Shown here: positions 25,111-60,300 of the stretch, piece after piece | Layout of the letters: each line of letters starts with the position of its first letter | Numbering within the stretch: position 1 is the stretch's first letter | Assembly (NCBI RefSeq): GCF_008831285.2 | Contig: NC_045138.2 | Location: 29,113,934-29,177,933, forward strand | Direction of reading: 5' to 3' | Length of the DNA: 64,000 bases | DNA from: Nymphaea colorata | Taxonomy: Eukaryota > Streptophyta > Magnoliopsida > Nymphaeales > Nymphaeaceae | Translations under genes and position numbers: made by a program | Notes under the pieces: generated by a model | Seen by the model: the letters and a program-made list of their open reading frames with translations, nothing else | Database searches by the model: none | What the model was told of the DNA's origin: nothing

Positions 25111-26935
25111 TCAATTTTACCAACCGAGGGGAGTCAATCAGGATATGATGCATTCAGGCTGACGAATTGCCTATTAGATCAAATTTAGGATTCAAAATGC
25201 TTACCCAGTCATGGCAAGCAACAAGAAAGTGATCTGCTCCATGTGTTTTATTACAGAAACGATATTTTGCACCAAGCATACTGATGTAGTTTTTCAAATA
25301 TAGTGCTAGAAATTTCTGCCTCGTTGCTCCAGTCGTATTTGTTGCACTTCGTAGCTTCAGTGCACTATATGGCAAGTAAAACATGTGAGCTCTGCTTGGA
25401 TCATTTGCAGACAAGTATTTGCTCGTTTCCATCAGTTTCATAAACCATCCTTCCGAAGCATAGATTCCCGAGATATGGTTTATGAAAAATGGGTGATCCT
25501 CCATCCTTGTAGACGTAGACCTTAAATATTTTTTCCATCAACTCATAGCTCCTGCAGATGGTTAGACCACGAGGCCGATATTTTCAGTATGAAAATACTC
25601 TCTACCAGTAAAAAGGTTACATTTTACAGGCAAACACTATAATGGAGAAAAGAAAAAACCCTAAGTAGCTGATTGGTTGCAGAACTGAAATTTACCGTTA
25701 TTTCCTCACAAGCACCAATACAAGCAAAAGCAAAGCATCCAAAATTTTAATGTTACGAAAGAGAATGTCTAGATCTATCTTATGTAAGACATTGATGTAT
25801 ACTATTATGCCAAAGATGAAGAGGTGAAAATATGAATTAAGGCAAACAACTGAATTATAGTTGTTTTTGGACTATGGTTCTATTTAAATATTCATATGTT
25901 CAATAGCGTGCTTATGGTCCAAACCTTGTGATTAGACTGCATGTTCCCCATAGTCACACGCACAGGGGGCAGTTTCCAAGATGTCAGAATCTCTCTTCAC
26001 ACTCAGAATATTGGAGACTTCTCCCTAATCACCCAAAGAAAATTATCTGCTGCTAGATTCCAAAAGACCGACGTCGCCAACGGCTTCAGCAAGTTTTGTA
26101 AAATTATCAGGTGGGGAAACTTCTAAAAAAACGATGTTGTCAAATTTTGTGTCCATCTTTTTAGGCAGAAGATTGTTGGTATTTGACAAAGAAGATGAAA
26201 GCTCGCTCAAGTAGGAAAACGTATAGAGCTGAAGGTCATGCCTGCTGTTTGGTTGGAGGGAAAGGAAGGAAAAGGGAAGGGAGAAAAAAAAAAAGGGAAT
26301 AAATCTAATCCTTTTAAAATTGGAGGGATTGGGAAGGAAAGGAAAAGTCTATCACTTTTTACTGTGTATACCCTTTCAACTTCGCCCGCAAAAGAAACAT
26401 CAACCAACCTTGCCTGACTCTTTCTTTCCCTCCTCACTGCTGGTTAAGACTTCGACGGGCGCCGAGCCTGTCACTCCACAACGGCCCCTTTACCAAAATC
26501 AATTTTTTGTCATTTTTATGTCATCCAATTAGTGTACCTGAAAATTTGTTTGATTGATATAAATTTTTATCATATTTGTTATTATAGAATGAAATGTCAA
26601 ATGTGTGGTTTCTCTTTTATTGAATCACAAAGTCAAATTAAATATATTTTTATTTGAATGATCAATTTTTGAATGTTATGGATATTATTGTAAAGTATTA
26701 AAAATACTATCATTTCATTTCCTTTTTATCCAAAGAAGTTTTATAATCATCTTTTTTCTTTCTTTCCTTTCCATTCCATTTCTTTCTCATTCTTTTTCCC
26801 TCCCTTTCTTTTCCTTTTCATCCCTCTCCCTCCATCAAAACAAAGCTTTAGAACAAGAAACACCATGGCACCAAACATTACACCTGTCTTTCGTATGATC
26901 CGAACTTTCCTTCTTATCCAATTTGAGATCCCCAT
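25111..26935 (-). pseudogene. GT47 pseudogene A (copy of gene C)
   Basis: This is the left-hand copy of the intact GT47 gene at 49527-52336. The ATG equivalent is at 26935 (MGISNWIRRKVRI). Exon 3 survives at about 25202-25552, including GIYASEGWFMKLMET and GADHFLVACHDW. A 2-bp loss before GIYASEG, with nearby substitutions, shifts the frame. Sequence equal to about 51090-51995 of the intact gene is deleted, removing exon 2 and the end of exon 1. Exon 4, which carries the core glycosyltransferase block, lies outside the duplicated segment and is missing. A 0.6-kb insertion splits what remains of exon 1. No functional enzyme is possible. Confidence 0.9.
26235..26845. mobile_element. Insertion with imperfect inverted ends in pseudogene A
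   Basis: Gene C and pseudogene A match on both sides of this stretch (gaag before, ctttagaac after), but gene C lacks the 611 bp between. The ends are imperfect inverted repeats: TGTTTGGTTGGAGGGAAAGG near the left, and TGTTTTGATGGAGGGAGAGG when the right end is read in reverse. They continue as purine-rich and pyrimidine-rich arms. The target duplication is at best 3 bp (AAG). It looks like a non-autonomous DNA transposon; the superfamily is not determined. Confidence 0.6.
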
Positions 26936-28637
26936 CCTTATACACCCTCAAATTATTGGCTCTCCATTGCTTCGAAAATGAAACGAAAGCCTCTCAACAA
27001 CGCCAAGTAGTTGACAACAAAGAGTGTTAAGTAGTCCAAAGTTTATGCATTGCACGAAAAAATCGAAATACCCACAAGGAATCCAGCAAGAAAAGGATCA
27101 TAGTAGATGTTTACATCAGACCAAAAAGAAGATCATTTATCCTGTAAAACCGACATAAGAAAATCCAGACAGCAGGTTAGCCCCTTTTTTCCAGAAATTT
27201 CCTCTTTGTTCCCATTGAAAAGTACCTGTGGCACCCCAAAACCCTCGTCTTCTTCTTTCTACTAGATCATCATGTTGTAGTTTGGTTGCAGTCTAATTGT
27301 TCCGGCGGCTCTCCTCTCCTGTCCTTCATTTACACATAAAGCACCTAATTATTCATAATTTTCGGAAAGCCGCCTAACTTGCCAGTTATAACATTTAGGT
27401 GCGGGTTCTTTGAGAGCCTGCTCCTGTCGACAAGTCTGTGCAGGAAGTAAATTGTTAAGGTTAGGAATTAGCCTAGTCCGACTAATTAAGATCCGACATT
27501 TACATATATTAGTTTCGGATTACTATTGGATTTCAGGGTCAATTTGTGCAGTACGTGAATTCTAACTCCGATGGAAAATGGCACACTGAATCTGAATCAA
27601 TTTGGTCACTGGATCCTATTTTCTTTACTAAATCCAACTAATGTTATTTGGATTTGGGTCAACCGTCAGTAAATGCAGCCACTCAAATTTGACTATCATC
27701 GGTCCAGCATAAACAGATCCAACCTAACCGCTGACAGACTAGAATTCTCTAAAGTTGCCACCTATGTGGGTCTAAAATGTATAAAGGCAGGTGTCTAGTT
27801 TGATTTATGTTGGCGTTATTTTCCTGTCTTAAGGTGGTAGAGTGCGACATCCAAATTGAAAGGTACAATGTTGCAGCTGAAGACTCCAAAGGCAGAAGGA
27901 ATGAAGAGGCCTTCGAACCTTTTTCGAGCGGTGAAATTAATAACTCTTGCTCACCCGAAAAGACTCGTTGTCTATGCATCCCTCGCTGACCAGATATGAT
28001 ATGCTAAACCTAATCAATGAAGTGATTGCTCTGTCACTTTACATACGTAGCCTGCACTCCAACTGTTTACATGTATTTATTTACTAAAATTGGAAGACCA
28101 GTTTATCAGGGAATTTATGACTCAAAGTAGTAAATTTACATTCCGCTTCCTGCTTACGGAATGAAGCCAAAGATTCGAGGCCTCGAGTTTGGTAAAGTGA
28201 CATTTTGCCATCTTGTCGTTTCTAATCGAGGAAACATCCCTCGAAATCTTCCCGAAAACAGAAGAAATAAAACCATTCCAAATCTTCTCTGATCTCACAA
28301 ACATACACTCGGCTTCAGTTTGCGCAAGAGGTGGTGCCCAGTATAGCACTACACCGACCCCTTTGGCTGTCGATGTTTTTATTTTCAATCTCTTTTTTTT
28401 ATTCAAGTTCTGCCAATCTCATTCATCGTGCAAATAAAGCATGAAAAAGACTTCAGTTCACTCTCTGAAATATACAGGAAAACAACAAGACATATACAAT
28501 CTAGAAAAAGGAAGCGATGTAAATAGATTCAATGAGACTGAACATGGCGCGGTCTTCGCTGACTGACTTCTTAGCATGCAAGCATAACGCAGGTCCTTTT
28601 GAGGCTCCCATCTTCCAACGTCAAAGCTCTGCAACTT

Positions 28638-31533
28638 CTACCCTTTTATCTGATATAATCGGTTAAGCCAAATTGAATGAAGAACCATATGAAATATGTC
28701 ATACTTGACAGGCTTTAGATGCCACAGGAAGTGCTTTTGAACTCTTTTCACCCCTGTCTGCAGCATAAGATACTTCTTCTCTGGGACTGATTGACAACAA
28801 TATTTCCTTCAAACTTGGGAATGTCCTTCTCAGGTATAATGACTGAAAAAGCATCCCAATTTAGGACTTCAAAGAAAGGTGGAACGAAATTGTCTGACAT
28901 AATTACAGGAACACACACATAGTAACCTCTAGGACAGATGCAGTACTTGCTAGATTTCATGTGTTCTATGTAGGAAACTTTGCTTGCGACTCCACGGGGC
29001 ATAGCTACATAGATTTTCATGTCAGTATCTTTCTTCTCCCATTGATTAAGCAAAATGGGTCTAAGATAACCATGCATTCGTCCAGCAAAGAAGGTGAGGA
29101 TTGGCCTTTGACATGCAGGCTTACCTCCAACATCCCTAAGAGGATTTTGTCCAGAACGAATGTTCGTCTGTGGAAAAGAAACATCTTTACCCAACTTGAA
29201 GAAGCCTTGTGAGACATCTGCATTGCATATAGCTTTTATTGCATTCTTTCGAAGTTCACGGTGCAACTTTGTTTCAAATGGTCCTTGAGAATCTAGATGA
29301 ATCAGAATGATATTTCAAGGAGAATTGCCTCAGGAGGTCAAGAGAAACAACAAGGCTATGTTCAACTGACAATAGGGAACAAAGTATATACCCAGTCATG
29401 GCAGGCAACAATAGAGTGATCAGCACCTCCAGTTCTATTCCGGAAACGATATTTTCTAGCCAGCATGTCAACGTAGTCTTTTAAGATACAGCTAAAGGAC
29501 TTACCCTATGTGAATTAGGTACATACAGTAACTCCCGCATCATGGAGGAACTGTAGGGCATGTAAAACATGTGAGTTTTTCTTGGGTCCTTGACAACAAA
29601 TCTTCTGTTCCCTTCCATCTGTTTCATAAACCATCCCTCAGAAGCATAAATGCCCCTGAAAAAGGGTTTGTGGAAAATGGGTTTGCTTCCTTCCTTATAG
29701 ATATAAACCTTGAACATTTGCTCCATTAGTTCGTAGCTCCTGAAACAAGGACAACAAAGTTCTTATCATCGACATGAGGGCAAAATTCTAGATGCAACTA
29801 AATTTCTTTAGGGAAAATAACCATAGTTTCACAGCATAATCTTCGAGTATCAGCTATAGATAGGAGGAACTTCAAGGAAGAAAATTGCATGTTTAGTTCA
29901 ACAGCATTTGCAGCAGAAATTTTTTCTAAATCGCAACAGGGACCATGGTGCGTGACATTTGAAATTCTAACAGCACACAACTGCGGTTTTCAATTAATGT
30001 ACCATACTGCAGTAGTTGACTTATGTTAGACCAAAAAAAGAAATCACATAGTTATAGTCTACTCTTTGAATACATGAGAAACAATGGTGGAAAACACTGC
30101 ATAGACTGTCTAAGATTTTTCTGAACGCTCATTAGAGACGGTCATGGTTTCAAAATGTCAATGAGATACAACTAAATATTCAGTTAATCTAGCACTCTGC
30201 AAGTTTAACAGCATATAATTTCATCAGGCAAAGATAGAAAAACCAGAACTGCTTTAGGCATAACAAAAGATCCTAAAGCATGAAACTTCAGATCTTTCCG
30301 TGTCGTGAATATTACATCTTGATTGCTATTCTTTACCAAGAATTCATGATGTGAAAAACAATCGGAATTCTGAATAACCAGCGCCAGTTGCAGACAAAGG
30401 TGTTAGTCATGTACCTCTTGAACATGGAGACATTACGCAATACTGGTGCATAAAGATCGCGATCGTTTCTTATCATAGGTGCATTTTGAATTTGTTTCCT
30501 TGCAGATAATAGCTCCTTGTCCCGTGGCGATGGCCACCGAGGTCTCTGCATAGGGAAAACCAAGTATGAGGAATAGATTCATCACGACGGCATCACGCAT
30601 GGACGTGGATTATGCTGTTGATCCATACCATAGAACCAGAAGGAATGCCATTCCAATCAACCATGTAAACGCTCTCAACAATCTTATTCCTCATTGTTAG
30701 GCGTGGAGTTAATGGGTCCATGGAATCGGGTCAGCAGCTCCATCGTCTCCTCCATGCGCTCCCTGTGAGCTTCCACAGCAGCCGTTACGTCCTTGGAAGT
30801 CACCTTGTATTTGTTAGCCATAGCTCTGATACCAGTGTTAGCCGCCTGCTAACAGAGGGCTATTACTCCTGCGAAAGCCCAGCCTTCACATCGGTCCTTA
30901 TATATACTGCGGTCCAATACATGGGATGGGTTTATTAAGACCTACCATCTACCCGACCCATTCCTAACAGACTTCACGCAGGGCAGATCCTGCCACCGCT
31001 GACCTGACTCCATGGACCCATTAACTCCACGCCCAACACTCATCCAGTGCTTTTGTCTCGGCTCATTGATAATCACTAAACCACCATGTAAGGCATAGCA
31101 AGTGTTCGTTTTGGAGCCTAACTCTACCTTTCTCACCCCCATGGATGATGACAAAATGGGAACAACTGGGGTCACTAGCAAAGTTCCTTTGATTTTCCCA
31201 TGACTTCGTCACTCTTAAAAGAAACGACTGGACATGATTCAGCAGCCGGAACAGTAGCTGCCCCTTTTCCATCTACATCCTTTCCTTCTTCTCTCTGTTC
31301 CTCTTGGATACCTCCATCCATACTCACAACTTCAGTTTCCTCCACTTCATCGTTAAAAATAAATGTACGATTAGAGTTACCAGAATCACTGAGTCCAGGG
31401 TTATAGGCACATGGACTTTGCTGTCAGGAAACAAAGAGCAGAAATTACTCAAATAAGAAATACTGCAAGATTGGAACACTAGCAGAAATGTTCCCAAGAT
31501 AACAACCACCAAAGTTAGCTTTCTGTGTTCCAT
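28638..31533 (-). pseudogene. GT47 pseudogene B (copy of gene D)
   Basis: This left-hand copy of gene D has the same four-exon layout from the ATG at 31533 (MEHRKLTLVVVILG). Exon 1 carries a 344-bp retroelement-derived insertion, and it lacks about 75 bp found in D (the GTPSSEYSAPEVTDFGEIND region), which also breaks the frame. Exon 2 is intact. Exon 3 has lost one base near 29490, giving a stop soon after SHRVSPLAVS. The exon 4 acceptor reads TTCTCAA where D has TTCTCAG. In exon 4, 36 bp are deleted, removing 12 residues (EVNSPRILEAIY) from the most conserved block. A 1-bp and a 4-bp insertion then shift the frame. Overall similarity to D remains very high, so decay is fairly recent. Confidence 0.93.
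30695..31038 (-). mobile_element. LTR-retroelement fragment with inverted end
   Basis: A 344-bp insertion in exon 1 of pseudogene B is flanked by a perfect 5-bp target duplication, CTCAT (30690-30694 and 31039-31043). Gene D has the empty site. On the minus strand it starts TGTTGGGCGTGG, has a TATATATA box and ends an LTR of about 203 bp in CTAACA (31038-30836). After one base comes TGGTATCAGAGC (30834-30823), the standard primer-binding site for initiator Met tRNA. An ATG at 30821 follows, with MANKYKVTSKDVTAAVEAHR and on for about 40 codons, a gag-like start. The sequence ends CACGCCTAACA, an inverted copy of about the first 30 bases of the LTR. There is no second LTR, polymerase or polypurine tract. 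It may be a TRIM-like or aberrantly reverse-transcribed element. Confidence 0.82.
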
Positions 31534-31749
31534 TATGGGTGCTTCCTTGTCATCTGTACAGCAACCTCCATGGAGCAAACAACCCCAAAACCTTTCCCAG
31601 AAGAGGGGAAAACAATAGTCATACTGCAAAAAGCAATCATGATCACAAAAAAACCAACAAGAACAAAATGTACAGATACCCATTTCCTAAAACAGTATAG
31701 CGTGAGACAACTACAAAGAGAAAGTGAAGGACAAACCTGAAAAGAAATC

Positions 31750-32056
31750 AGGGCTGCAATGCAAACTGAATCACTCCAACCACTGCAAAGATCAAAGACA
31801 GTGAAAAATGAGGATTTAAAGATACTCATTTCAGGAAAATTGTGGACGATATCCGCTACAGATGCATATTGAAGAGTAACCAAAGCTGCTTCCTTTAGAT
31901 ATTCTCGAGCCCCAAGTATGCTCACGAAGAATGAGTCGACTTTCTTACTTCAGAGTTCAGACCCCTACAATCTGGTCCTCTAAAAAACATTAAAGAGAAA
32001 ATGGAGGTCGTGGTAGGCAGTGGTGTGCCCCACTCATTGGGAAAGGGTCGTTAACC
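31750..32056 (-). other. Conserved leader upstream of pseudogene B
   Basis: This stretch matches the region upstream of gene D (about 57005-57320) with few differences, as well as the coding exons do. On the minus strand, CAG|GTTTGT near 31735 and an acceptor-like TGTACAG about 20 bp before the ATG could bound an intron in the 5' untranslated region. The splice assignment is inference. Confidence 0.4.
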
Positions 32057-33527
32057 TCATCTCCTCTAAAATCTGTCCCTCTCTCTTTCTAGATCTCTCT
32101 CTGAGTGCCAGGCCTGTCATGTCGTTGGCCCTGCCATAAAGTACCTCTGTAAGAGTTTCCGTACGCCATTTCCGTTCGATCAGTGCATCATACTTAGGAA
32201 CGACACCTGAAAGTCCAGTCACTAGTGGAACTGCACTGGCGGTTAACCGCATACTGCAGATCTCCGGATTCTGGTTACGTGGGAAGGGTTGATAAACATT
32301 TCAAGAGTTTTACACTTCGACTCAACTCTTGATCAAGAATATTGGGATAAACACTTACGCCTAAAATTTGGGTTCGCAGGTTTTTTAAATCTTATTGCCA
32401 GTCCACTGAATGAGAATCATGCTAGAAATCAGACCGTAGCAAGTTGCCTTTGAGTGTTTTACTGCTGGAACAATTCAAGTATGACCTACGATACACAGAG
32501 GAATGAGAATAAACAGAAAAGAGAGCACTTTCTCTCACCCTGACTCACACCCTCATCATCATCACCTTTGACAGCTCCCAATGTTTGTCCGGTCAGTGTT
32601 CGAGAGGATGCAAACGTTTGCAGGAGGATCATCATTTTAAGAACCTCAAATATGGCTTCTGAGTCAAATTTTTTGCACCGTACATTAGATTATATAAAGA
32701 TTTAAAAGTTAGATGAAAATTTGACAATAGGGAAAGGCAAAAGGATTGTTTTTTCTTCATAGCATTAGATCCTATCTACATATCCAAAAAGACTTGATTA
32801 AAGAGGCGCTTCTTATGCTCTTAAATCTCAACCATGGAAAGCAGATAGCTGGGGCGTCCTGAATCTTGCAGTTGAATACGCATTTGGGAGCATTATCCAG
32901 CCAGCATATCATCTTTTCTTTGGTCTTCCCACTGAGAGGCTAGATAAGATTCTTTATTTACTTCATCTGCACACGCTTATGCAACTTGGTTCAACAGATT
33001 CTTCAAATTTCTAGTACCTGATCATGCTTATTGAAAAATGACAATGGAGAATCTTTAAGGTCTTCAGTTTCTATCCAATAAAAACTACTTTGCAATTGTA
33101 TGGCTCTCCTAGGAGGAAAACAGTATGTATAATATATCATAGAGAGAGTGAACACCTTTGTTCAGGGAGATCTGATCAGTTAAATATTGTGGAAAAAACA
33201 TTAGCATCTGAGCTCTTCTCTGAAATTTATCTCCTTGAAATTAAGACCGGTGAAATAAAGTGTTATTTAGCACATAATGAACTATGTGAAAATATATTTC
33301 TCAGCATGTTTTTTTGAAACGGAATACAAATAATGTCTTCATTTATTACATCTACCGGCCTGGGGAAAACATCAGCTCAATAATTAGATTTTCTAAGTCC
33401 TAACAATAATAAATCAACTTCTATCAGCCCATTTTCTTTAGCCAGCTGAAGATTGTTGTTGCATGCTTCAAACTCCCATCGCATTTTATTTCTCCATAAA
33501 TTGTACTCTGGCCACTGCAATGCCTTC
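32057..33527. other. Intergenic spacer with an unassigned ORF remnant
   Basis: This lies between the end of the left duplicated block and the stop of the lysine-rich gene. It contains the unexplained coding-like stretch at 32802-33014, listed separately. Otherwise I see no gene. Confidence 0.5.
32802..33014 (+). pseudogene. Unassigned coding-like remnant, about 70 residues
   Basis: The frame is open from a TAA at 32799 to a TAG at 33012-33014 and reads, in part, PWKADSWGVLNLAVEYAFGS, then PAYHLFFGLPTERLDKILYL, then LHLHTLMQLG. The composition, with Trp and regular hydrophobic spacing, looks like real protein. There is no start codon near the beginning and no recognisable partner exon. I do not recognise the family. 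It may be an exon remnant or a gene fragment carried in by a transposon. Confidence 0.35.
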
Positions 33528-44771: not shown

Positions 44772-47141
44772 GTTATAAAAACACCCATTTTTCTGTAAAA
44801 AGAATTCTTCCAGGGTTTAATTTTGCCCTATCAATTTTGTATCTTTAGCTTTTTCCTTTTTTTATAATTGTATTTTCTCCAAGACAAACAGCTTGCTTGT
44901 ATTCACGCTAATTAAATTCTCCCGACGGTGGCTTTTATTCTTTTTCTGAAGCACCATGGAGACAAGTTAGTCAATATTTTCATTTAACGCAGCTTGTATT
45001 TAGCAGCTTATTTACCATCTTGAAAGAACGAAACGAAGAGAATTAGATTATGTGACATCTGTTTGAAAATGAAATTCTTGTAAGCGTACTTGTGCAGACA
45101 CGGGGTTCTGTCCTTCACAGAAGTTTCCATGTTAAAACCGTTGCTTAATGATTTACCCGCTTGGATGTGGAGACCGAAGTCGAGGCTAATTCTCAGATAT
45201 GGAAAGCTGGTTGCAGAATTGTATAGGTGGACCTCATGGATTTCAGTTTTGATATTGAGGCAGTACCCATTCCCGGATGAATTTGATCTTGAGTGGTGAT
45301 CATGTATCGTCTGAAGTTGTCGAACTTCTTGCTGTGGGAGCTGAGTTTGGTAGGCATTTAACGTAGGCCAGGTTTCATCGGTTTTCTGTGTTATTCTCTT
45401 TTGGTTGTGCGTGGCTAATCTTATGGATGTTCTCTTTCTATTCTTTCATTTTATTCATGTTCTTTTCAAATGAATTCCGGGGATCCTCCCCAGCAGGGAT
45501 TCATCACAACCAGGGTCCTTCCAAATTAAAACAATGACCCGCCCTATGGTCGAGTTTCTCAGATATTCAATTGTATTTCTGGAATACCAAAAAGGCCATC
45601 ATGCACAAATTTTAAAGCTCAATTTGGCAAGATACAAGAAAAAATCATATATCCATTTCTTTATTAATCATGCTGTAAAGTTTGCATTTGTGAACAAAAA
45701 GCAGTGCCTACTACGTCTTGAAAAATCAACTGCTCTAAAAGCAGAGTAGTTTGCAGGTTCTTCGCTTTTTTTTTTTTGGTTAAAAATCTACTAAAACCTT
45801 GAAAAGGCCGCTGTTAAGGACCTCTTGCAAATTTAGTTACCTGAATGCATATTTTCGAAAACAATATGCATGATTGTGGATATGTTCTTAAAATTAAATG
45901 CAAGAATGGTAGTCCCGTAGGACTTAGTATAGTTGGTCGGACAGTTGTGTGGTAAAGTGGGGTGTTAAGTTCCTGTTCTGAAAATGGGGAAGCAATGATG
46001 AATTAGTTGACATGCAGTGAGCTCATCCTGAACTACCAAAGCAGCCCGAGGCCTACGGGGGATTCGCCCATCGGAATAGGCTCACTAGTGGGTTAGTTTC
46101 GCCAGTAGGCATCTCTGGTCGACGGTTCGTCGGAAAGATGGCTGGCGAATGAGAACGATAGGAGGAGAGAGAGGGGGTTTGGCGAGCCGTTCTAAAGTAT
46201 TTAACCCTCACGATTCGTCTTTGACGTGATAATGAAACGTTAGAGAAAGACTAACAACAAACGCCCAGGCGAGACGTCAGAAATTTCTAAATCACGTACA
46301 CCACGCAACTGTTGACGGTCAGCGAACGCATCAATAAATAGACTTTCAATGGCGCAAAACATCAACTCGTAAGGAACAATCTGCCTTTACTGATAAGCCC
46401 TCCTTCGTTAGTAAAGATTTTATGGAATAAGATTTGACTTTTACTGAAGTCTTCTAGTAGAAGCCAAGCCATTGACATTCCAAAGGGTAGCATTTCATAC
46501 ATGTTGCATGTGAAACATCAACAACAAACATAATTGGAAGCCAGAAGAGGCATTATCAACCTCAGAGGCGCTTGGGGAACCCGAAAGGAAGATATAAGGT
46601 AAAGAGAAGGAATTCCGACTCAATTGCAATAAAATATGAAATTCTTGTATCATCAGAATCGGGAGAACCAAACACAAACTGGTGCGAGCATGTTCGGATC
46701 ATAATTTTCTCCACTTGTATCGAGAAAGCAGAAACTTTACATTGTTCTTAAGAAATTCCCATCAACCATAAAGAATCAAAGAAATGATCATGAATTGAGA
46801 AAGTAAACACCTTCCAAAGACGGGCAAAAACTTACAGATTTCGAAACAGTCGAAAGGAAAAGGGAAGAGCAAACTTTAAGATCTTCGAACGAGGCGATCA
46901 GCAAGGCAACGAAAAGGCTCTCACGATAACATGGAGAAAATGAAGATGGGTAGGAAAAAAATTGGTAAGATCCGCCTAAGCGGGTTGCCTTAACCATATG
47001 TGGTAACGGAAAGCTCGAAAGCTATTCCCGTCCCTGTCAGGGGAGATGCCAACCGTCTCTCCTTTCAACGAACACGGTGAAAGTGTTACAGCTTTTCTAT
47101 TAAATTACGCAAGTCTTTTCCAAAATCGGCCAATACAGGAC
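44772..47141. other. Intergenic region after tRNase Z
   Basis: The first part should hold the tRNase Z 3' untranslated region; no canonical polyadenylation signal stands out. A segment near 45905-45985 (gacttagtatagttggtcgg) looks faintly tRNA-like, as in SINEs. A less AT-rich patch at about 46010-46330 has no frame or repeat I recognise. Confidence 0.5.
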
Positions 47142-49526: not shown

Positions 49527-52336
49527 TCATATCCTTATCTGCCTTAATCTGCTAAACCAAACTGAGTGAAGAATCATGTGAAATATGTCATATTTAACAG
49601 GATTTGCATGCCAAAGAAAATGCTTCTGCACTCTTCTCACCCCCAACTGTAACATACGATACCTGTGGTCTGGGATAGATAGCAGTATCTCCTTTAGTCT
49701 AGGAATGTCTTTCTCACGTACAGTTACTGCAAAAGCATCCCAGTTCAGAACTTCATCAAATGGTAGCACGTAGTCATCTGAGATTATAACAGGAACACAC
49801 TCATAGTATATGGCCTCAACCACACGTGGGCTGTTCACCTCATAACCTCTGGGACAGATGCAGTACCTGCTAGATTTCATATTCTCTCTATATGACCCCT
49901 TGCTCTGGATCCTATCAGGCATTTCACCCTGTATTTTCATGTCTGTGTCTTGTTCCCAGTGCTGCAACATGACCGGACGAACTCTACCATGCATTTGACC
50001 TGCAAAGAAGGCCAGAGTCTGTCTTTCATGTGCCGGTTTACCTCCCACATCTTTGAGAGGATCCTGTCCTGAGCGAATGTATGTAGTCGGAAGTGAAACA
50101 TCTCTGCCTAACTTGAAGATGCCTTTTGAAGGATTGGCATTGCACAGTGCCTTGATTGTATTCAATTTAACCTCCTCATGAAGCCTTGTCTGTTGTGGTC
50201 CCTGTGAAAGTACAAGTAGCAATTTTACCAACCGAGGGGAGTCAATCAGGATATGATGCATTCAGGATGACGAATTGCCTATTAGACCAAATTTAGGATT
50301 CAAAATGCTTACCCAGTCATGGCAAGCAACAAGAAAGTGATCTGCTCCATGTGTTTTATTCCAGAAAGGATATTTTGCAGCAAGCATACTGATGTAGTTT
50401 TTCAAATATAGTGCGAGAAATTTCTGCCTCGTTGCTCCAGTCGCATTTGTTGCACTTCGTAGCTTCAGTGCACTATATGGCAAGTAAAACATGTGAGCTC
50501 TGCTTGGATCGTTTGCAGAAAAGTATTTGCTTGTTTCCATCAGTTTCATAAACCATCCTTCTGAAGCATAGATTCCCCTGAGATAAGGTTTATGAAAAAT
50601 GGGCGATCCTCCATCCTTGTAGACGTAGACCTTAAATATTTTTTCCATCAACTCATAGCTCCTGCAGATGGTTTGACCATGAGGCCGATATTTTCAGTAT
50701 GAAAATGCTCTCCAACAGTAAAAAGGTTACACTTTACAAGCAAACTATAATGGAGAATAGAAAAACCTTAAGTAGCTGATTGCTTGCAGAACTGAAATTT
50801 ACAGTTATTTCCTCACAAGCACCAATACAAGCAAAAGCAAAGCATCCGAAATTTTAATGTGACGAAAGAGAATATCTAGATCTATCTTATGTAAGAGATT
50901 GATGTATGCACTATTATGCCAAAGATCAAGAGGTGAAAATATGAATTAAGGCAAACAACTGAATTACAGTAGTTTTTCGACCATGGTTCCCTTTAAATAT
51001 TTCATATGTTCAATAGCGTGCTTATGGTCCAAAACTTGTGATTAGACTGCGTGTTCACCATAGTCACACGCACAGGGGGCAGTTACCAAGATTTGGCAGG
51101 GAACCTTCATTATTTGTTTATGCAACAAGAAGCTGCCAACAACCTACGCAGAATGCCATTTATTGTGCTTTTCTTACTAAATATAATGATCTGAAATTTC
51201 TTTGAAAAATATAGCGCTATTACACATAAGAGCTCATAATTAACTAGTAGAGAAATTTTAGTTTCATGTATTGGGTGACTGTAAGAAGTGTCATATGTTC
51301 TCTTTATTTTGCCAACTGCAAAATGTAGAAGCTGTAAAAAATAACTTTCACTTTAGAACTATCTTAAGCCCAAGAACTCCATGACTGCACTAAGAAGTAG
51401 TTGCTATCTCTTCACCCATTATTGGTAATTGTAATCAAGACAGTGCAACTAAACGGGTCTTACAAGATATCGAGTATATTCACCTCTTAAACATGGAAAT
51501 GTTCCGAAAGAGAGGTGCGTACAATTCACGGACATTCTCCAGATGAGGAGCACGATAAATTTCTCTTTTCGCAGACAAAAGCTCCTTTTCCAAAGGTGAA
51601 ATTCTTACTGGCTTCTGCATAATATGGAGCAATATCACAAAAACCTACCTAGGGGGCAATCATGTTAGTAATCAAGATAAGAGCATCCAACATCACATAC
51701 CTTACTATACGAATTGCCACTACGTTTCTTCCCGGCTTGATCCTCCCCTGTAAGGAAACGGCTCATTCCTGCGGAATTACCAGTCGAACTCACTGACGTC
51801 CTCTGTGAAGGATATGAACGTTTTCTTTTAGCAGCCAAAGCAGTTGCTTCTGCTCCCAATGTAGGCATTTTCCTTGGCACCATTAAAGGGTTCTCAGTTG
51901 GTGTTCCTACCATTTTCGCATTCACGTGGGTAGCAAGTGGTAATGCTGCCTTTTTATGTCTTCCTCTAAGCATTTCTTTTGCATTATCTGGCATCTCAAA
52001 ATCTCTCTTCACACTCAGAATATTAGAGACTTCACCCTGATCACCCAAAGAAAATAATCTGCTGCTAGATTCGAAGAGACCGACGTCGCCAACGGCTTCA
52101 GCAAGTTTTGTAAAATTATCGGGTGGGGAAACTTCTAGAAAACCCATGCTGTCAAATTTTGTGCCCATCTTTTTAGGCAGAGGATTGTTGGTATTCGACA
52201 AAGAAGATGAAAGCTCGTTCAAGTAGGGAAACGTATAGAACTGAAGCTCTAGAACAAGAAACACCATGACACCAAACACTACACTGGTCTTTCGTCTGAT
52301 CCGAACTTTCATTCTTATCCAATTTGAGGTCCCCAT
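49527..52336 (-). CDS. GT47 exostosin-family glycosyltransferase C
   Basis: A probable Golgi type II glycosyltransferase of the plant exostosin-like clade, acting on cell-wall or glycoprotein glycans; donor and acceptor cannot be told. Exons: 51701-52336, 51484-51614, 50313-50661, 49527-50201, GT-AG borders, 1791 bp, 596 residues. A basic start (MGTSNWIRMKVRIRRK) precedes a membrane anchor at about 17-33. A variable stem of about 180 residues follows. The exostosin domain begins near residue 255: KIFKVYVYKDG, GIYASEGWFMKLM, AHMFYLPYS, GADHFLVACHDWGP. It continues TLAFFAGQMHGRVRP, MKSSRYCICPRGYEVNSPRV, YYECVPVIISDDYVLPF and VLNWDAFAV. The C-terminus is KYDIFHMILHSVWFSRLRQI. Nothing is broken. 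It is the working counterpart of pseudogene A and lies 1.8 kb from its tandem paralogue D. Confidence 0.93.
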
Positions 52337-54128
52337 CCTTATATACCCTCAAATTATTGACTCTCCATTGCTTCGAAAATGAAACGAAAGCTTCTCAACA
52401 ACGCCAAGTAGTTGACAACAAAGAGTGTTAAGTAGTCCAAAGTTTATGCATTGCACGAAAAAGTCGAAATACCCACAAGGAATCCAGCAAGAAAAGGATC
52501 ATAGTAAGATGTTCAAATCAGACCAAAAAGAAAATGATTTATGCTGTAACACCGACATAAGAAAATCCGACAGCAAGTTAGCTCCTTTTCTCCAGAAACT
52601 TCCACTTTTTTCGCATGAAAAAGTACCTGCGGCTCCCCAAAACCCTCGTCTTCTTCTTTCCTCTAGATCATGTTAATAGTTTGGTTGTAATCTTACAGAC
52701 GGGAAGTGCGGGGGTTTCCGCGTACATTGTTCCGGCGCCTCTTATGTCCTTCATTTACACATAAAGCACCTACTTGTTCATAATTTTCGGAAAGCCGCCT
52801 AACTTGTCAATTATAACGTTCAGGTGCCGGTCCTTTGAGAGCATGCTCCTGTCGACAAGTCCGTGCAGGAAGTAAATTGTCAAGATTCGGAACAAGCCTA
52901 GTCCGACTAACTAAGATCCGACATTTACATATATTAGTTTCGGATTATTATTGAATTTCAGGGTCAATTTGTGCAGTACGTGAAAACTCCGATGGAAAAT
53001 GGCACACTGAATCTGAATCAATTTGGTAACTGGATCCTATTTTCTTTACTAAATCCAACTAACCTTATTTGGATTTGAGTCAACCATCAGATAAATGCAG
53101 CCACTCAAATTTGTCTATCATAAGTCCAGCATAATTATATCCAGCCTAGTCACCGACAAACTAAAATTCAACTAGTTTGTATTCTAGAGTTGCCATCTAT
53201 GTGGTGGTATGCCAAAGGTAAAAATTATCCCTTTTAAGATACATTTTTCAATTTGAGTGTTATGCACGTTGCTATTTACAGTTTAGAAAAGTAACACTCA
53301 CAAAAATCGAACTAGACTAGCGACCTGTTGTCCATGCATTCCTCCGGCAACCATTAATGAAGTGATTGTTCTATCATTTTATATATGTAGCCTGCACTCC
53401 AACTGTTTACATGTATTTATTTACTAAAATAGCAAGACTAGTTAATTAGGGAATCTATGACTCAAAGTAGTAAATTTACAGCCCGCTTCTTGTTTACAGA
53501 ATGAAGCCAAAGATTCAATGCCTTGAGTTAGGTAAAGTGAGATTTTGCCATCTTGTTGTTTCTAATCGAGGAAACATCCCTCAGGATTTTCCCGAAAACA
53601 GAAGAAATAAAACCATTCAAAATGTTCCCCGATCTCCAGACATACACTCTGCTTCAGTTTGCGCAAGAGGTAGTGCCTAGTATAGCACTACATCACCCTT
53701 TGATAGGGCGGCGCCAAGAATTTTTTGTCTGAGTTTCAAAATTTTAACAAGCGTCAAAATAGAAAATTTCAAATTATATATATATATTACACTAATTTTT
53801 TTAGATTTATATATAATTTTGTTAAGTTTTTAAAATCCGAGGGGAGGGGGGGACAAGGCCCCTGTTTTTATTTTCAATCTCCTTTTTTTTAATTCAAGTA
53901 CTGCCAATCTCATTCATCGTGCAAATAAAGCATGAAAAGGACTTCAGTTCACTCTCTGAAATATACAGGAAAACAACAAGATATATACAATCTAGAAAAA
54001 GGAAGCGATGTAAATAGATTCAATGAGACTGAACATGGCACGGTCTTTGCTGACTGACTTCTTAGCATGCAAGCATAACGCAGGTCCTTTTGAGGCTCCC
54101 ATCTTCCAATGTCAAAGCTCTGAAACTT
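52337..54128. other. Spacer between GT47 genes C and D
   Basis: This is the 5' flank of gene C and 3' flank of gene D. Most of it is shared with 26936-28637, with small differences. It contains a dispersed repeat at 53248-53335 and an insertion at about 53704-53864 absent from the left copy. Confidence 0.65.
53704..53864. mobile_element. Probable hAT-type miniature insertion
   Basis: The left duplicated copy reads cccctttggctgtcgatg then tttttattttc. The right copy has about 160 bp of AT-rich sequence between the same flanks, starting tagggcggcgccaagaat and ending caaggcccctg. End sequence and composition resemble the hAT miniature elements elsewhere in the window. A target duplication could not be established. 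Confidence 0.5.
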
Positions 54129-56773
54129 CTAACCTTTTATCTGATATAATCGGTTAAACCAAATTGAATGAAGAATCATATGAAATATGTCATACTTGAC
54201 AGGCTTTAGATGCCACAGGAAGTGTTTTTGAACTCTTTTCACCCCCGTCTGCAGCATAAGATACTTCTTCTCTGGGATTGACAACAATATTTCCTTCAAC
54301 TTGGGAATGTCCTTCTCAGGTATAATGACTGAAAAAGCATCCCAATTTAGGACTTCAAAGAAAGGTGGAACGAAATTGTCTGATATAATTACAGGAACAC
54401 ACTCATAGTATATTGCCTCAAGGATCCGCGGACTGTTGACCTCGTAACCTCTAGGACAGATGCAGTACTTGCTAGATTTCATGTGTTCTATGTAGGAAAG
54501 TTTGCTTGCGACTCCACGGGGCATAGCTCCATAGATTTTCATGTCAGTATCTTTCTTCTCCCAGTGATTAAGCAAAATGGGTCTAAGATAACCATGCATT
54601 CGTCCAGCAAAGAAGGCGAGGGTTGGCCTTTGAGATGCAGGATTACCTCCAACATCCCTCAGAGGATTTCGTCCAGAACGAATGTTCGTCTGTGGAAGAG
54701 AAACATCTTTACCCAATTTGAAGAAGCCTTGTGAGACATCTGCATTGCATATAGCTTTGATTGCATGCTTTCGAAGTTCACGATGCAACTTCGTTGCAAA
54801 TGGTCCCTGAGAATCTAGATGAATCAGAATGATATTTCAAGGAGAATTGACTCAGGAGGTCAAGAGAAATAACAAGGCTATGTTCAACTGAACAATAGGG
54901 GACAAAATACATACCCAGTTATGGCAGGCAACAATAAAGTGGTCAGCACCTCCGGTTCTATTCCAGAAACGATATTTTCTAGACAGCAGGTCAACGTAGT
55001 CTTTTAAGAATACAGCTAAAGGAATTACCCTATGTGAATTAGGTACATACAGCAACTCCCGCATCATGGAGGAACTGTAGGGCAAGTAAAACATGTGAGC
55101 TTTTCTTGGGTCCTTAACAACAAATCTTCTGTTCCCTTCCATCTGTTTCATAAACCATCCCTCAGAAGCATAAATGCCCCTGAAAAATGGTTTGTGGAAA
55201 ATGGGTTTGCTTCCTTCCTTATAGATATAAACCTTGAACATTTGCTCCATTAGTTCGTAACTCCTGAAACAAGGACAACAAAGCCCTTATCATCCACATG
55301 AAGGCAAAATTCTAGATGCAACTAAATTTCTTTAGGGAAAATAACCATAGTTTCACAGCATACTCTTTGAGTATCAGCTATAGATAGGGGGAACTTCAAG
55401 GAAGAAAATTGCATGTTTATTACGACAGCATTTGCAGCAGAAATTTTTTCTAAATCACAACAGGGACCATGGTGCGTGACATTTGAAATTCTAACAGCAC
55501 ACAACTGTGGGTTTCAATTAATGTACCATACTGCAGTACTTAACTTATGTTACACCAAAAAAAAAATCACATAGTTATCGTCTACTCTTTGAATACATGA
55601 GAAACAATGGTGGAATACACTGCATAGATTGTCTAAGATTTTTCTAGACACTCATTAGATGCGGTCATGGTTTCGAAATGTCAATGAGATACAACTAAAC
55701 ATTCAGTTAATCTAGCGCTCTGCAAGTTTAACCGTATATAATTTCATCAGGCAAAGATCGAAAAAACCAGAACTGCTTTAGCCATAACAAATGATCCTAA
55801 GGCATGAAACTTCAGATCTTTCCATGTCGTGAATATTACATCCTGATTGCTGTTCATTACCAAGAATTCATGATGTGAAAAACAATCGGAATTCTGAATA
55901 ACCAGCGCCAGTTACAGACAAAAATGTTAGTCATGTACCTCTTGAACATGGAGACATTACGAAATACTGGCGCGAAAAGATCGCGATCGTTTCTTATCAT
56001 AGGTGCATTTTGAATTTCTTTCCTTGCAGATAATAGCTCCTTGTCCCGTGGCGATGGCCACCGAGGTCTCTGCATAGGGAAAAACAAGTATGAGGAATAG
56101 ATTCATCACGACAGCATCACGCATGGACGTGGATTATGCTGTTGATCCATACCATAGAACCAGAAGGAATGCCATTCCAATCAACCCTGTAAACGCTCTC
56201 AGCAATCTTATTCCTCATCCAATGCTTTTGTCTCGGCTCATTGGTAATCACCAAACCACCATGTAAGGCATAGGAAGTGTTCGGTTCGGAGCCTAACTCT
56301 ACCTTTCTCACCCCCATGGATGACGACAAAATGGGAACAACTGGAGTTACTAGCAAAGTTCCATTTGATTTTCCCACGACTTCGTCACTTTTAAAAGAAA
56401 CGACTGGAGATGATTCAGCAGCCGGAAGAGTGGCTGCCCCTTTCCCATCTACATCCTTTCCTTCTTCTCTCTGTTCCTCTTGGATGCCTCCATCCATACT
56501 CACAACTTCAGTTTCCTCCACTTCATCGTTAGAAATAAATGTACGATTAGAGTTATCAGAGTCACTGAGGTCGTTAATCTCGCCAAAATCCGTTACTTCG
56601 GGAGCAGAATATTCACTACTGGGAGTACCCATGTCCAGGGTTATAGGTACATGGGCTTTGCTGTCAGGAAACAAAGAGCAGAAAGTACTCAAATAAGAAA
56701 TACTGCAAGATTGGAACACTAGCAGAAGTGTTCCCAAGATAACAATCACCAAAGTTAGCTTTCCGTGTTCCAT
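54129..56773 (-). CDS. GT47 exostosin-family glycosyltransferase D
   Basis: A tandem paralogue of gene C with the same exon plan: 56153-56773, 55939-56069, 54915-55263, 54129-54806, 1779 bp, 592 residues. Exons 2 and 3 have identical lengths in both genes (131 and 349 bp). I use the ATG at 56773 (MEHGKLTLVIVILG). Residues 5-28 form the signal anchor, and an acidic, Ser-rich stem follows (GTPSSEYSAPEV, EINDLSDSDN). The exostosin domain has FKVYIYKEGSKPIFHKPF, GIYASEGWFMKQM, GADHFIVACHNW, LAFFAGRMHGYLRP and MKSSKYCICPRGYEVNSPRI (near 475-495). YYECVPVIISDNFVPPF, VLNWDAFSVII and IFHMILHSIWFNRL follow. Protein similarity to C is clear in the catalytic half and low in the stem, so the C/D pair is older than the segmental copy. 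Substrate unknown. Confidence 0.93.
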
Positions 56774-57320
56774 TATGGGTGCTTCCTTGTCATCTGTACA
56801 GCAACCTCCACGCAGCAAACAACCCCAAAACCTTTCCTAGAAGAGGGGAAAATGATACCCCATAAGAAATCTTCCTATAATACTGCAAAAAGCAATCATG
56901 ATCACAAAAAACCAAAAAGAACAAAATGTACAGATACCCATTTCCTAAAACAGTAAAGCGTGAGACAACTACAAAGAGAACGTGAAGAACAAACCTAAAA
57001 AGAAATCAGGGCTGCAATGCAAACTGAATCACTCCAACCACTACAAAGATCAAAGACAGTGAAAAATGAGAATTTAAAGATACTCATTTCAGGAAAATTG
57101 TGGACGATATCCGCAACGGATGCATAGTGAAGAGTGACCAAAGCTGCTTCCTTCAGATATTCTCGAACCCCAAGTATGCTCACCAAGAATGTGTCGACTT
57201 TCTTACTTCAGAGTTCAGACCCCTGCAACTGGTCCTCTAAAAAGCATTAAAGAAAAAATGGAGGTCGTGGTAGCCAGTGGTGTGACTGTGGCCCACTTTC
57301 TGGGAAAGGGTCGTTTAACT

Positions 57321-60300
57321 TATTGAACACCAAATTTTCAGTTTAAGTACCACTGTTTGCACACACTAGTGGGCATCTCTTTGTTCCAAAACTCAAAGCT
57401 AAAATTGAATGCAGAAATTACTCACTGGTGAAAAAACTTACTTTGACAGAAGCAGAAGTATCAAACCTTTTCGAATGGATATATTTTTCAATTCATATCA
57501 ACCTTCAAAGTCACTCCCTTGGATCAATGCCTAGTAATTACTCCATTTGATCAGATGCGCGGTAAAACTCGCTCCATCTTACTTGTTTGTTGTTTGTTGC
57601 AAAAAGTTGCTCCAATACCATCAATCAACTTGTGAGGAACCTATTTTTTTTCATCTATTAAAGCGTCGCTTTCAGTTTATTGACGACGGATGCGACTCCA
57701 ATAGCAAGAGGATGGCCTTAGTGGTCAGGAAATAAATGACCAACAAGTGAAAAAGAAAAGAAAGAAGACATATAATTGTATATCAACTTTTTTTTGTTAC
57801 ACTAAATTATTTGTACCCTTGTTTTAAGGAGGGTAGCATAGATAGTCGGGTAGACACACATAGAAGGCATGTTGCCAAGAAATGTAACTGTACTTATATA
57901 TTTTGTCGTTGTTTTTAAATTCAAAAATTAAACATTAGCACCATACTTTTTGAAATAAGTTCATAATGTTCTTGAAACATGTAGCTTAGGGCTAGGTGTT
58001 CTAAGAACACAATGTTTTTCATACTGATACTTTCTTACCATTTGATATGCCTCCTTAGATACTTAAATTATTACAAACTCAAGAATTACAAGCTAAAGGA
58101 TGTCAGGATCGAGATTACAGGTTTGGTCATATAAAATTGATTGGATTCAATTTAGCGGTCTAGTTTGTCGTCTTTATATCTGGATCTACAACACTGATAA
58201 ATCGTGTTCGGATATGGCACCATGATCCGGTCCGCGACCCGCTGTTCGTTTCCTTCTCGCGTTTCCGTCCTTGATAGTTGATACCCATGAGGGGCAGTTC
58301 GGTAATATGTTTCCTCATGGCACGCAGGAAGGCCCCACAAGACAGGGCAGTGACTGCACAAGTCAGAATCCTTTTTTGTCCTTTTTCCAGTCAAGCTGAG
58401 AAGAAAGGCATTAAAAATTTCAAGGCTTATCCAGATATGGCGTCTTCTTTTCAGTAAAAACTTTTCCCAGAATTTTCCCTTTCCAGAAAACAATGAGAGG
58501 CTTCTTTTGGAGCATCGGATTCAGGAAGAAGGGGCATTTGAATTTTTTAAGTTGCATCGTTTTTCTAGTGTTTTTAGAATCAAAACCTCTTAAAGTACTG
58601 CCAAGTTGGGATTTAGAATTCAATCACTTTCCAAAAGAATCGGAAAAACAAAAAGTTCGAGCACCTTTTTGGAAAAACAAAAAATCAAAATCAAAATTTA
58701 TAGAAAATTCAAGACTCATATGTTTGAGAATCAATTGATAATCTGGTCAAGACTTAAAAATTGCAGAAATGTATGAGGGGAATTGGTAAGGGAGGCTGTG
58801 CTCTGTGCACGAGGGGGATTGATAGGCAGTCAATTCAGCCTAATAAAATTTTTAATATTATTTTTGCTTATTTTTATATATTATTTTAATATTTTATTAC
58901 AATTAGTTACATTTATATATTATTTTATATTAAAAACATATATTTTTTAATTTTAATCCAATAGGACCCATACTTAGGTTTTGGGTGTCGGGCTGGCTCA
59001 GCCCGAGCCTGACTCCTTATCCACATTCCTATACTTGCCTATATCTTATTTGAAAAAAAAAAGTTTTTTTAAATAAAATTTTTTGGGTGTGCTAAATAAG
59101 GATGTCCAGGGATTAGATTAAGATTCTGGCCAAAATGATTCAAAAAATAGGGAAAAAATTTAATACATCCAATTAAGAAAACAATTCGATTAGAATTCAA
59201 ACAATAACATTTCATCAATTTAGTGATTTCATTCTAAATAAATTCCCAATCAGAAGGGAGAAAAGTGGATATGAAATCACACTTTTTTCTCCTTGTTTTA
59301 TCTCAACTATGGATCTGAAAAGGATCAAATATTGAGAATGCCGTTTACCATCTAAGTATCTAGCACCTACCAGTTTTTTTTTTTTTTTTGTTCTTTCTCC
59401 TTTTATCGTTTTTTATATACATATAGTTTAACAATTTAAATAAAAGACAAAAAAAAAAAAAAAAAAAAAACAGCGTGATGCCAAATGAAGAGAAGGATAT
59501 CTAACGAACAAAGATTCTGGTCCGGGGTACTGAATGTAAGACTTTATAAATTGATAAAAATAAAGAGTTGAATACGAGGCGTGTAACTCTTTGCATAAGC
59601 AAGCTGGTAGAGCCCTTCTATTGCAAATTGACCAAAAAAATATTATTCAATTCTTATTAAAAACAAGTCTTCACAAACAAGTAGTAAAGAAGGGGAAGGT
59701 TGCTCTTAATCGCTTTCCACAATCTTCAATCGCCTTTTAATTGCTGGCACGAAGAAGCTTCCCAATTTGCCTCGTAGACTTGTTACATTATTAAAAGCAG
59801 TTTCTTGGAAACATGGCAAGTTAATCTCTATCGTCATTCTGCCTCTTACTTTTGTTCCATTAGTTTCCATTCAATCTTCGTTTCGTCGTTTTCTATTAAT
59901 TTTCTACACTGCCTTCTTGTATGTTTCCCTTCTAGTTTCCGGGATGCTTCAAAAGAGCTTCATATGAATTACATCATGCATCCGTCTGCTTAAAGTTTTT
60001 AGTATATTACATGAGTGGACCACATAAAAGTATATTGGCATGCACCCTTCTATTTCTCATGTCTTCTAAAAATATTTGATAGTGGACCGCACAAAATTCA
60101 TAAAGATTTTCTTCTTCCAATTCCTACCAAAAACAATTGAAAATTCAAATACATTCTTTCCGTTGTTAAACAGAAAAGCAAACATGTAATTAGCCTTTAA
60201 GTTGGCCTCTCATAAATCTTTACTATCTAGGGAATCACAGTCCAGATGATTCTACTTTTATTAGGGCTAGGATTTTTTTTTTTTTGTTGTAAGAGCCGAA

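Follow-up and report, generated by a model that had tools for sequence, protein, structure and literature searches.

A Ty3/gypsy derivative with two inverted U3 ends in a duplicated gene copy of Nymphaea colorata

One of two duplicated gene copies in Nymphaea colorata carries a short insertion with the anatomy of a long terminal repeat (LTR) retrotransposon: a single LTR, a primer-binding site (PBS) and the start of gag. At its far end it has an inverted copy of the beginning of its own LTR in place of a second direct LTR, and both ends lie within one perfect target site duplication. How was such a molecule made, and how did it come to be integrated? We addressed this question in a 64-kb stretch of DNA, analysed as a whole and referred to below as the window, and in the remainder of the genome assembly. 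The features on which the argument rests are collected in Table 1.

Table 1. Coordinates of the insertion, its parts, its target site and its two-LTR relatives. Positions are those of the window, except in the last three rows, which give positions on C6, C2 and C11.
Feature	Position	Strand or orientation	Length or basis
Whole insertion	30695..31038	− (reads 5′ to 3′)	344 nt; paralogue lacks it
Single LTR, TGTTGG...CTAACA	30836..31038	−	203 nt
U3 end, left arm of terminal inverted repeat	30996..31038	−	element nt 1–43
TATATAA within LTR	30898–30904	−	TATA box
Primer-binding site TGGTATCAGAGC	30823..30834	−	sole 12-mer match in window (≤1 substitution)
gag start, codons 1–29 (ATG to CTG)	30735..30821	−	comparison with relatives' gag
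Junction CTG, common to gag and U3 complement	30735..30737	−	relatives' gag and U3
Inverted U3 end, right arm	30695..30737	+	40 nt U3 only + 3 nt shared with gag
Target site duplication CTCAT, left copy	30690..30694		abuts insertion
Target site duplication CTCAT, right copy	31039..31043		abuts insertion
Empty target site in paralogous gene copy	56214..56218		one CTCAT only
C6 relative, two LTRs	19199644 and 19204336	same orientation	
C2 relative, two LTRs	28524459 and 28514742	same orientation	
C11 relative, two LTRs	568887 and 558736	same orientation	

The insertion, its host gene and its anatomy

An earlier note on this DNA described a CTCAT-flanked insertion of 344 bp that was missing from the paralogue, and its coordinates, its length and the perfect duplication, which touches both U3 ends, are all borne out. 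The host sequence is a gene copy whose paralogue has an open exon at the insertion point. To the left of the insertion, positions 28374–30694 match 53863–56218 with 93.8% identity over 2362 aligned columns; to the right, 31039–31393 match 56214–56569 with 94.4% identity over 356 columns, and the two flank matches overlap by exactly CTCAT, which marks the empty site. The note had allowed that related empty sites might differ, in which case the repeats would not be a target duplication; the paralogous site carries a single CTCAT, so the duplication stands. The empty state of that site suggests that the insertion arose after the segment had been duplicated. The window holds no further copy of the insertion, and its remaining matches to the window are ≤19 nt.

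The filled gene copy contains two frame changes within 31041–31578, separate from the insertion, and therefore looks like a pseudogene. Open reading frames near the insertion gave Pfam matches to GT47 exostosin, and the host exon itself matched no Pfam family. The duplicated segments as a whole (25112–32060 and 50220–57323) carry GT47 exostosin-like open reading frames and are 87–95% identical in their main collinear blocks. The window also contains a U6atac minor spliceosomal RNA gene at 46954–47075 on the minus strand (97.6 bits, model positions 1–126 of 126).

Read on the minus strand, the element consists of the LTR, one C, the PBS TGGTATCAGAGC, which we take to match the plant initiator tRNA-Met, one T, and an ATG that begins 42 codons open to the end. 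The LTR of ~203 bp, the PBS and the open gag start that had been described are thus each present, the LTR measuring 203 nt. Neither terminus has a U5 end; the element has two U3 ends, inverted relative to each other, and one PBS. Its 3′ end, examined for a normal direct LTR, is an inverted U3 tip, and this right arm terminates exactly at U3 nucleotide 1. The inverted match to the LTR start had been put at ~30 bp; the match is real but longer, with 38 of 41 positions identical between the last and first 41 nt, or 39 of 43 when the arms are judged against the gag/U3 boundary of relatives. A chance inverted match was rejected, since the best terminal match in any other 344-nt span of the window, compared without gaps, reaches only 23/41. 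RNA folding of the insertion (z −9.4) merely restates the inverted arms. The 42-residue peptide of the insertion matched no Pfam family, and a comparison of the insertion with a plasmid collection gave no match, which is uninformative for a plant.

Relatives elsewhere in the genome

A search of 407.8 Mb in 783 contigs, in which all counts are lower bounds, returned at least 22 matches to the insertion, three of which belong to the window insertion itself (the whole copy and each arm). Among the matches listed, only the window copy is covered over its full length. This search had been proposed in the earlier note as a means of telling a real family from a single aberrant copy; it yielded one full copy among the matches listed and no family of the same form.

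U3, PBS region and gag occur together, among the matches listed, in three further copies, on C6, C2 and C11. All three possess a second LTR in direct orientation, 4.7, 9.7 and 10.2 kb away, respectively, a count that excludes diverged places with U5, PBS and gag only (for example on C5, C8 and C14). A Pfam comparison of the C6 element, cut into nine separate pieces, gave matches for five, ordered Retrotrans_gag, RVP_2, RVT_1, Integrase_H2C2 and SH3_Tf2-1; neither RNase H nor an integrase core was matched among the nine pieces. This is the gypsy order, by which the relatives are classed as a Ty3/gypsy LTR retrotransposon family. The window insertion shares with it LTR, PBS and gag homology as well as a 5-bp duplication, and lacks the two direct LTRs; it is a derivative of the family rather than an intact member, because an inverted U3 tip takes the place of the second direct LTR. 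No close parent was found in the genome search, the best identities being 75% over element nt 3–309 (C6) and 86% over the 138 nt of U3 at nt 1–138 (C1 and C7), and the gag and U3 of the donor therefore had to be deduced from cousins.

Normal members of this family terminate in U5; their ends are TG...CA, mostly CTAACA, and are accompanied by 5-bp duplications, namely CCAAG at C2 and GTAAC/ATAAC at C6, with CATTC and TTTGG/TTTGA (4/5) at solo LTRs on C1 (C1:31717185) and C13 (C13:8122768). At C11, GTTTTT stands on both sides, which suggests a 6-bp duplication or a change in the T-run. The LTR of the insertion is 203 nt long, versus 255 nt in the C6 relative; it lacks ~41 nt adjoining the TATA box and another 13 nt farther along, and 7/7 other aligned loci (L002–L008) have extra sequence next to the TATA box.

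The relatives have structural peculiarities of their own. The 3′ LTR of the C6 element is split by a nested insertion of ~2.4 kb (L009, 5913–8328). Between the LTRs of the C2 element lies a copia-type element (L010, 3385–8838; RVT_2, rve and gag_pre-integrs) with a ~490-bp repeat pair at its ends. Between the C11 LTRs, positions 2853–2894 of L011 match element nt 77–118 at 81% in the opposite orientation, without a U3 start, and this weak match falls within a repeat of 230 nt in that interval.

The junction and the two termini

The point at which gag gives way to U3 was located by comparison with other gag copies, as the earlier note had proposed. Of at least 15 places found with gag, ten were fetched, of which one is the window itself, one (L036) fails to cover the junction and eight were compared. 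All eight read TGATGA at the junction, that is, A where the window has C, and the three closest read on as MELMTQRL. The departure follows codon 29. The residues FHGPINSTP, previously described as gag-encoded, are thus inverted U3 and not gag, because gag reads differently at the junction in 8/8 other copies; of the gag start estimated at ~40 codons, the open frame stands, at 42 codons, but only codons 1–29 are gag and the rest is inverted U3. The U3 starts of 13 aligned relatives mostly continue CAGCAGAGG, and the right arm therefore comprises 43 nt of U3, with CTG shared with gag.

The two arms differ at four of the 43 positions (5, 31, 34 and 42). Relatives read A at position 5 (13/13), G at 31 (10/11), G at 34 (8/11) and A at 42 (13/13), where the denominators of 11 count the relatives with a letter there. 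At 5, 34 and 42 it is the left arm that deviates from the family, at 31 the right arm. These differences are compatible with later changes in either arm, and position 34, which varies among the relatives, could mean two donor U3s.

At the junction, gag CTGATGACCC and the U3 complement CTGCTGACCC match at nine of ten positions. Of the eight gag copies, only two, L028 and L030, read CTGATGACCC, and L029 has CTGATGACTC; agreement is poorer in the other five, which are more distant. With the C11 gag piece, an equally good match across the junction occurs in 28 of 33696 registers for the U3 of L007 and in 29 of 33696 for that of L043; for the U3 of L005, 10 of 33696 registers are as good and the 9/10 homology is absent at the place of the junction. 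The base retained at the sole mismatch is that of U3, C in the sense of the element; the gag copies have A in 8/8, and the U3 strand has G in all 11 relatives with a letter there.

A purine-rich tract adjoining the U3 start is the usual plus-strand primer site. Such a tract lies directly upstream of a TGTTAGG-like U3 start in 8/13 aligned relatives, and it is in these relatives, not in the window copy, that the polypurine tract is visible. Since this tract ends next to the U3 start, each end of the insertion is of the type that plus-strand priming produces, and neither is U5. The U3 terminus TGTTAGGC begins with the same six bases as the U5 terminus when the latter is read inwards (TGTTAGCC), which may be the reason why integrase accepted two U3 ends. 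Retroviral integrase reactions have been staged in vitro with model U3 or U5 ends, according to the part of the account available to us (PMC11054761), and a partly available study describes U5 as more efficient than U3 in in vitro integration (PMC4468133). The insertion apparently documents, in nature, the concerted joining of two U3 ends by the integrase of a plant gypsy family, and the identity of the strand that switched template may be preserved at its junction.

Origin of the insertion and comparison with known systems

The insertion is best explained, with a probability of about 0.6, as a single aberrant Ty3/gypsy retrotransposition product in which nascent U3 DNA re-primed on gag before integration of U3 to U3. 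During reverse transcription, the plus strand would start at the polypurine tract (U3 nucleotide 1), copy ~43 nt of U3 and let go. The 3′ end of the freed strand, GGGTCAGCAG, would anneal to CTGATGACCC in a plus-sense copy of gag and prime synthesis running back across gag, PBS, U5, R and U3 of a plus-strand DNA to the U3 terminus of that strand. The resulting duplex would have two U3 ends of the polypurine-tract-primed kind, and the integrase of the family could join U3/U3 as it would U3/U5, given the six shared terminal bases. Snap-back priming or template switching during reverse transcription had already been suggested in the earlier note, in agreement with the single full copy listed, the homology-marked junction and the position of both ends within one 5-bp duplication. 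Lacking a second R or U5, the insertion is expected to be incapable of copying itself, and one aberrant copy in a pseudogene has no evident function.

Snap-back in the strict sense is possible, if somewhat doubtful. Here a plus strand running U3-R-U5-PBS-gag would have ended within gag, folded back to pair with its own U3 and copied that U3 as far as the 5′ end, followed by U3-to-U3 integration; this gives the same anatomy and the exact U3 terminus, and homology is indeed present at the junction. The two polarities make different predictions for the single mismatch. A gag strand ending CTGATGACCC and folded onto U3 over the 10-nt homology would be expected to leave the A of gag unless repaired, whereas the C of U3 is found; had the strand ended at CTG, only 3 nt would have been paired and the further homology would be coincidence. 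A nascent U3 strand ending GGGTCAGCAG on gag has its last three bases paired and the mismatch internal, so the U3 base would be kept without repair. As the base kept is that of U3, the aligned sequences favour re-priming of nascent U3 DNA on gag over plus-strand snap-back from gag, a polarity that depends on one base.

End joining of two broken cDNA ends before integration, with a U3 tip joined onto a break in gag, is unlikely. End joining often leaves short shared sequence at junctions, and 3 nt are common to both sides here; the 9/10 match, in contrast, is rare at the register counts given above and not needed for such joining, although it is based on the sequences of cousins.

The earlier note had offered a distinct non-autonomous family, with a gag-encoded end recognised by integrase, as an alternative, which we now regard as very improbable. 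The uninterrupted reading frame speaks for it weakly, as by our estimate 13 more codons would lack a stop by chance in about half of all cases. Against it stand the divergent junctions of all eight gag copies, the single full copy among the genome matches listed and the lack of any second inverted U3 end in the loci searched. A 79-nt query from the U3 start found at least ten places, two being the arms in the window, and no inverted pair among the other eight; a 141-nt U3 query, blind to short arms (the short arm in the window itself is unlisted), gave 15 listed places and no inverted pair. Of the 52 fetched loci, only five have U3 starts in both orientations, and all five contain the window site (L001, L018, L027, L034 and L047). 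Rearrangement of a normal element or solo LTR after insertion, by deletion, inversion or a second insertion, is scarcely credible, since CTCAT abuts the inverted U3 terminus and a later event would have to end exactly there, even if nested insertions do occur in relatives. A DNA transposon or MITE, which has terminal inverted repeats in common with the insertion, was rejected on the PBS, the LTR anatomy, the gypsy kinship and the one full copy listed.

Aberrant reverse transcripts are already known as a kind; the present architecture was not found in the literature searched. Within open-licence publications, judged mostly by titles and the beginnings of abstracts, no U3-U3 element with a PBS and a gag fragment was found, and the portion of PMC5668417 available to us, which discusses recombination of Onsen, does not contain the word 'inverted'. 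Returning to re-priming of nascent U3, we put forward only tentatively that it is a side route of plant gypsy elements, in which a freed polypurine-tract-primed U3 strand re-primes by short homology on plus-sense element DNA and U3-U3 miniatures, accepted by integrase, recur in many families. If so, such insertions would have escaped notice because annotation is geared to direct LTRs. Their signature is searchable, consisting of two inverted LTR starts, one duplication and a PBS inside, and is missed by a direct-LTR search.

Among known elements, solo LTRs of the same family (the C1 and C13 copies above) share the LTR and the 5-bp duplication (4/5 at C13) but end in U5 and, unlike the window insertion, are without PBS or gag. 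TRIM elements are likewise short, with a PBS and no full coding region; they have direct terminal repeats, as described in the part of PMC4717578 available to us, whereas the insertion has inverted ends and one copy. The same partial source describes an inverted TA-TRIM of maize Zma-SMART, two inverted TRIMs measuring 559 bp by coordinates and flanked by a single CTTCA target duplication, and gives in that part no mechanism for the inversion. The likeness is that a small LTR element in inverted arrangement is enclosed by a single target duplication; in place of two inverted TRIMs, the window insertion combines one LTR and a gag fragment with only 43 nt of inverted U3. Template-switching complexes of LTR retrotransposons, flanked by 5-bp duplications (Sabot and Schulman 2007, PMC1950507), resemble it in that an abnormal product of reverse transcription was integrated as a unit in a single event. 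Those complexes are large, with an internal third LTR and a switch between the R regions of two RNAs, neither of which the insertion has; it is a short gypsy product instead, its U3 ends inverted and its switch lying between U3 and gag.
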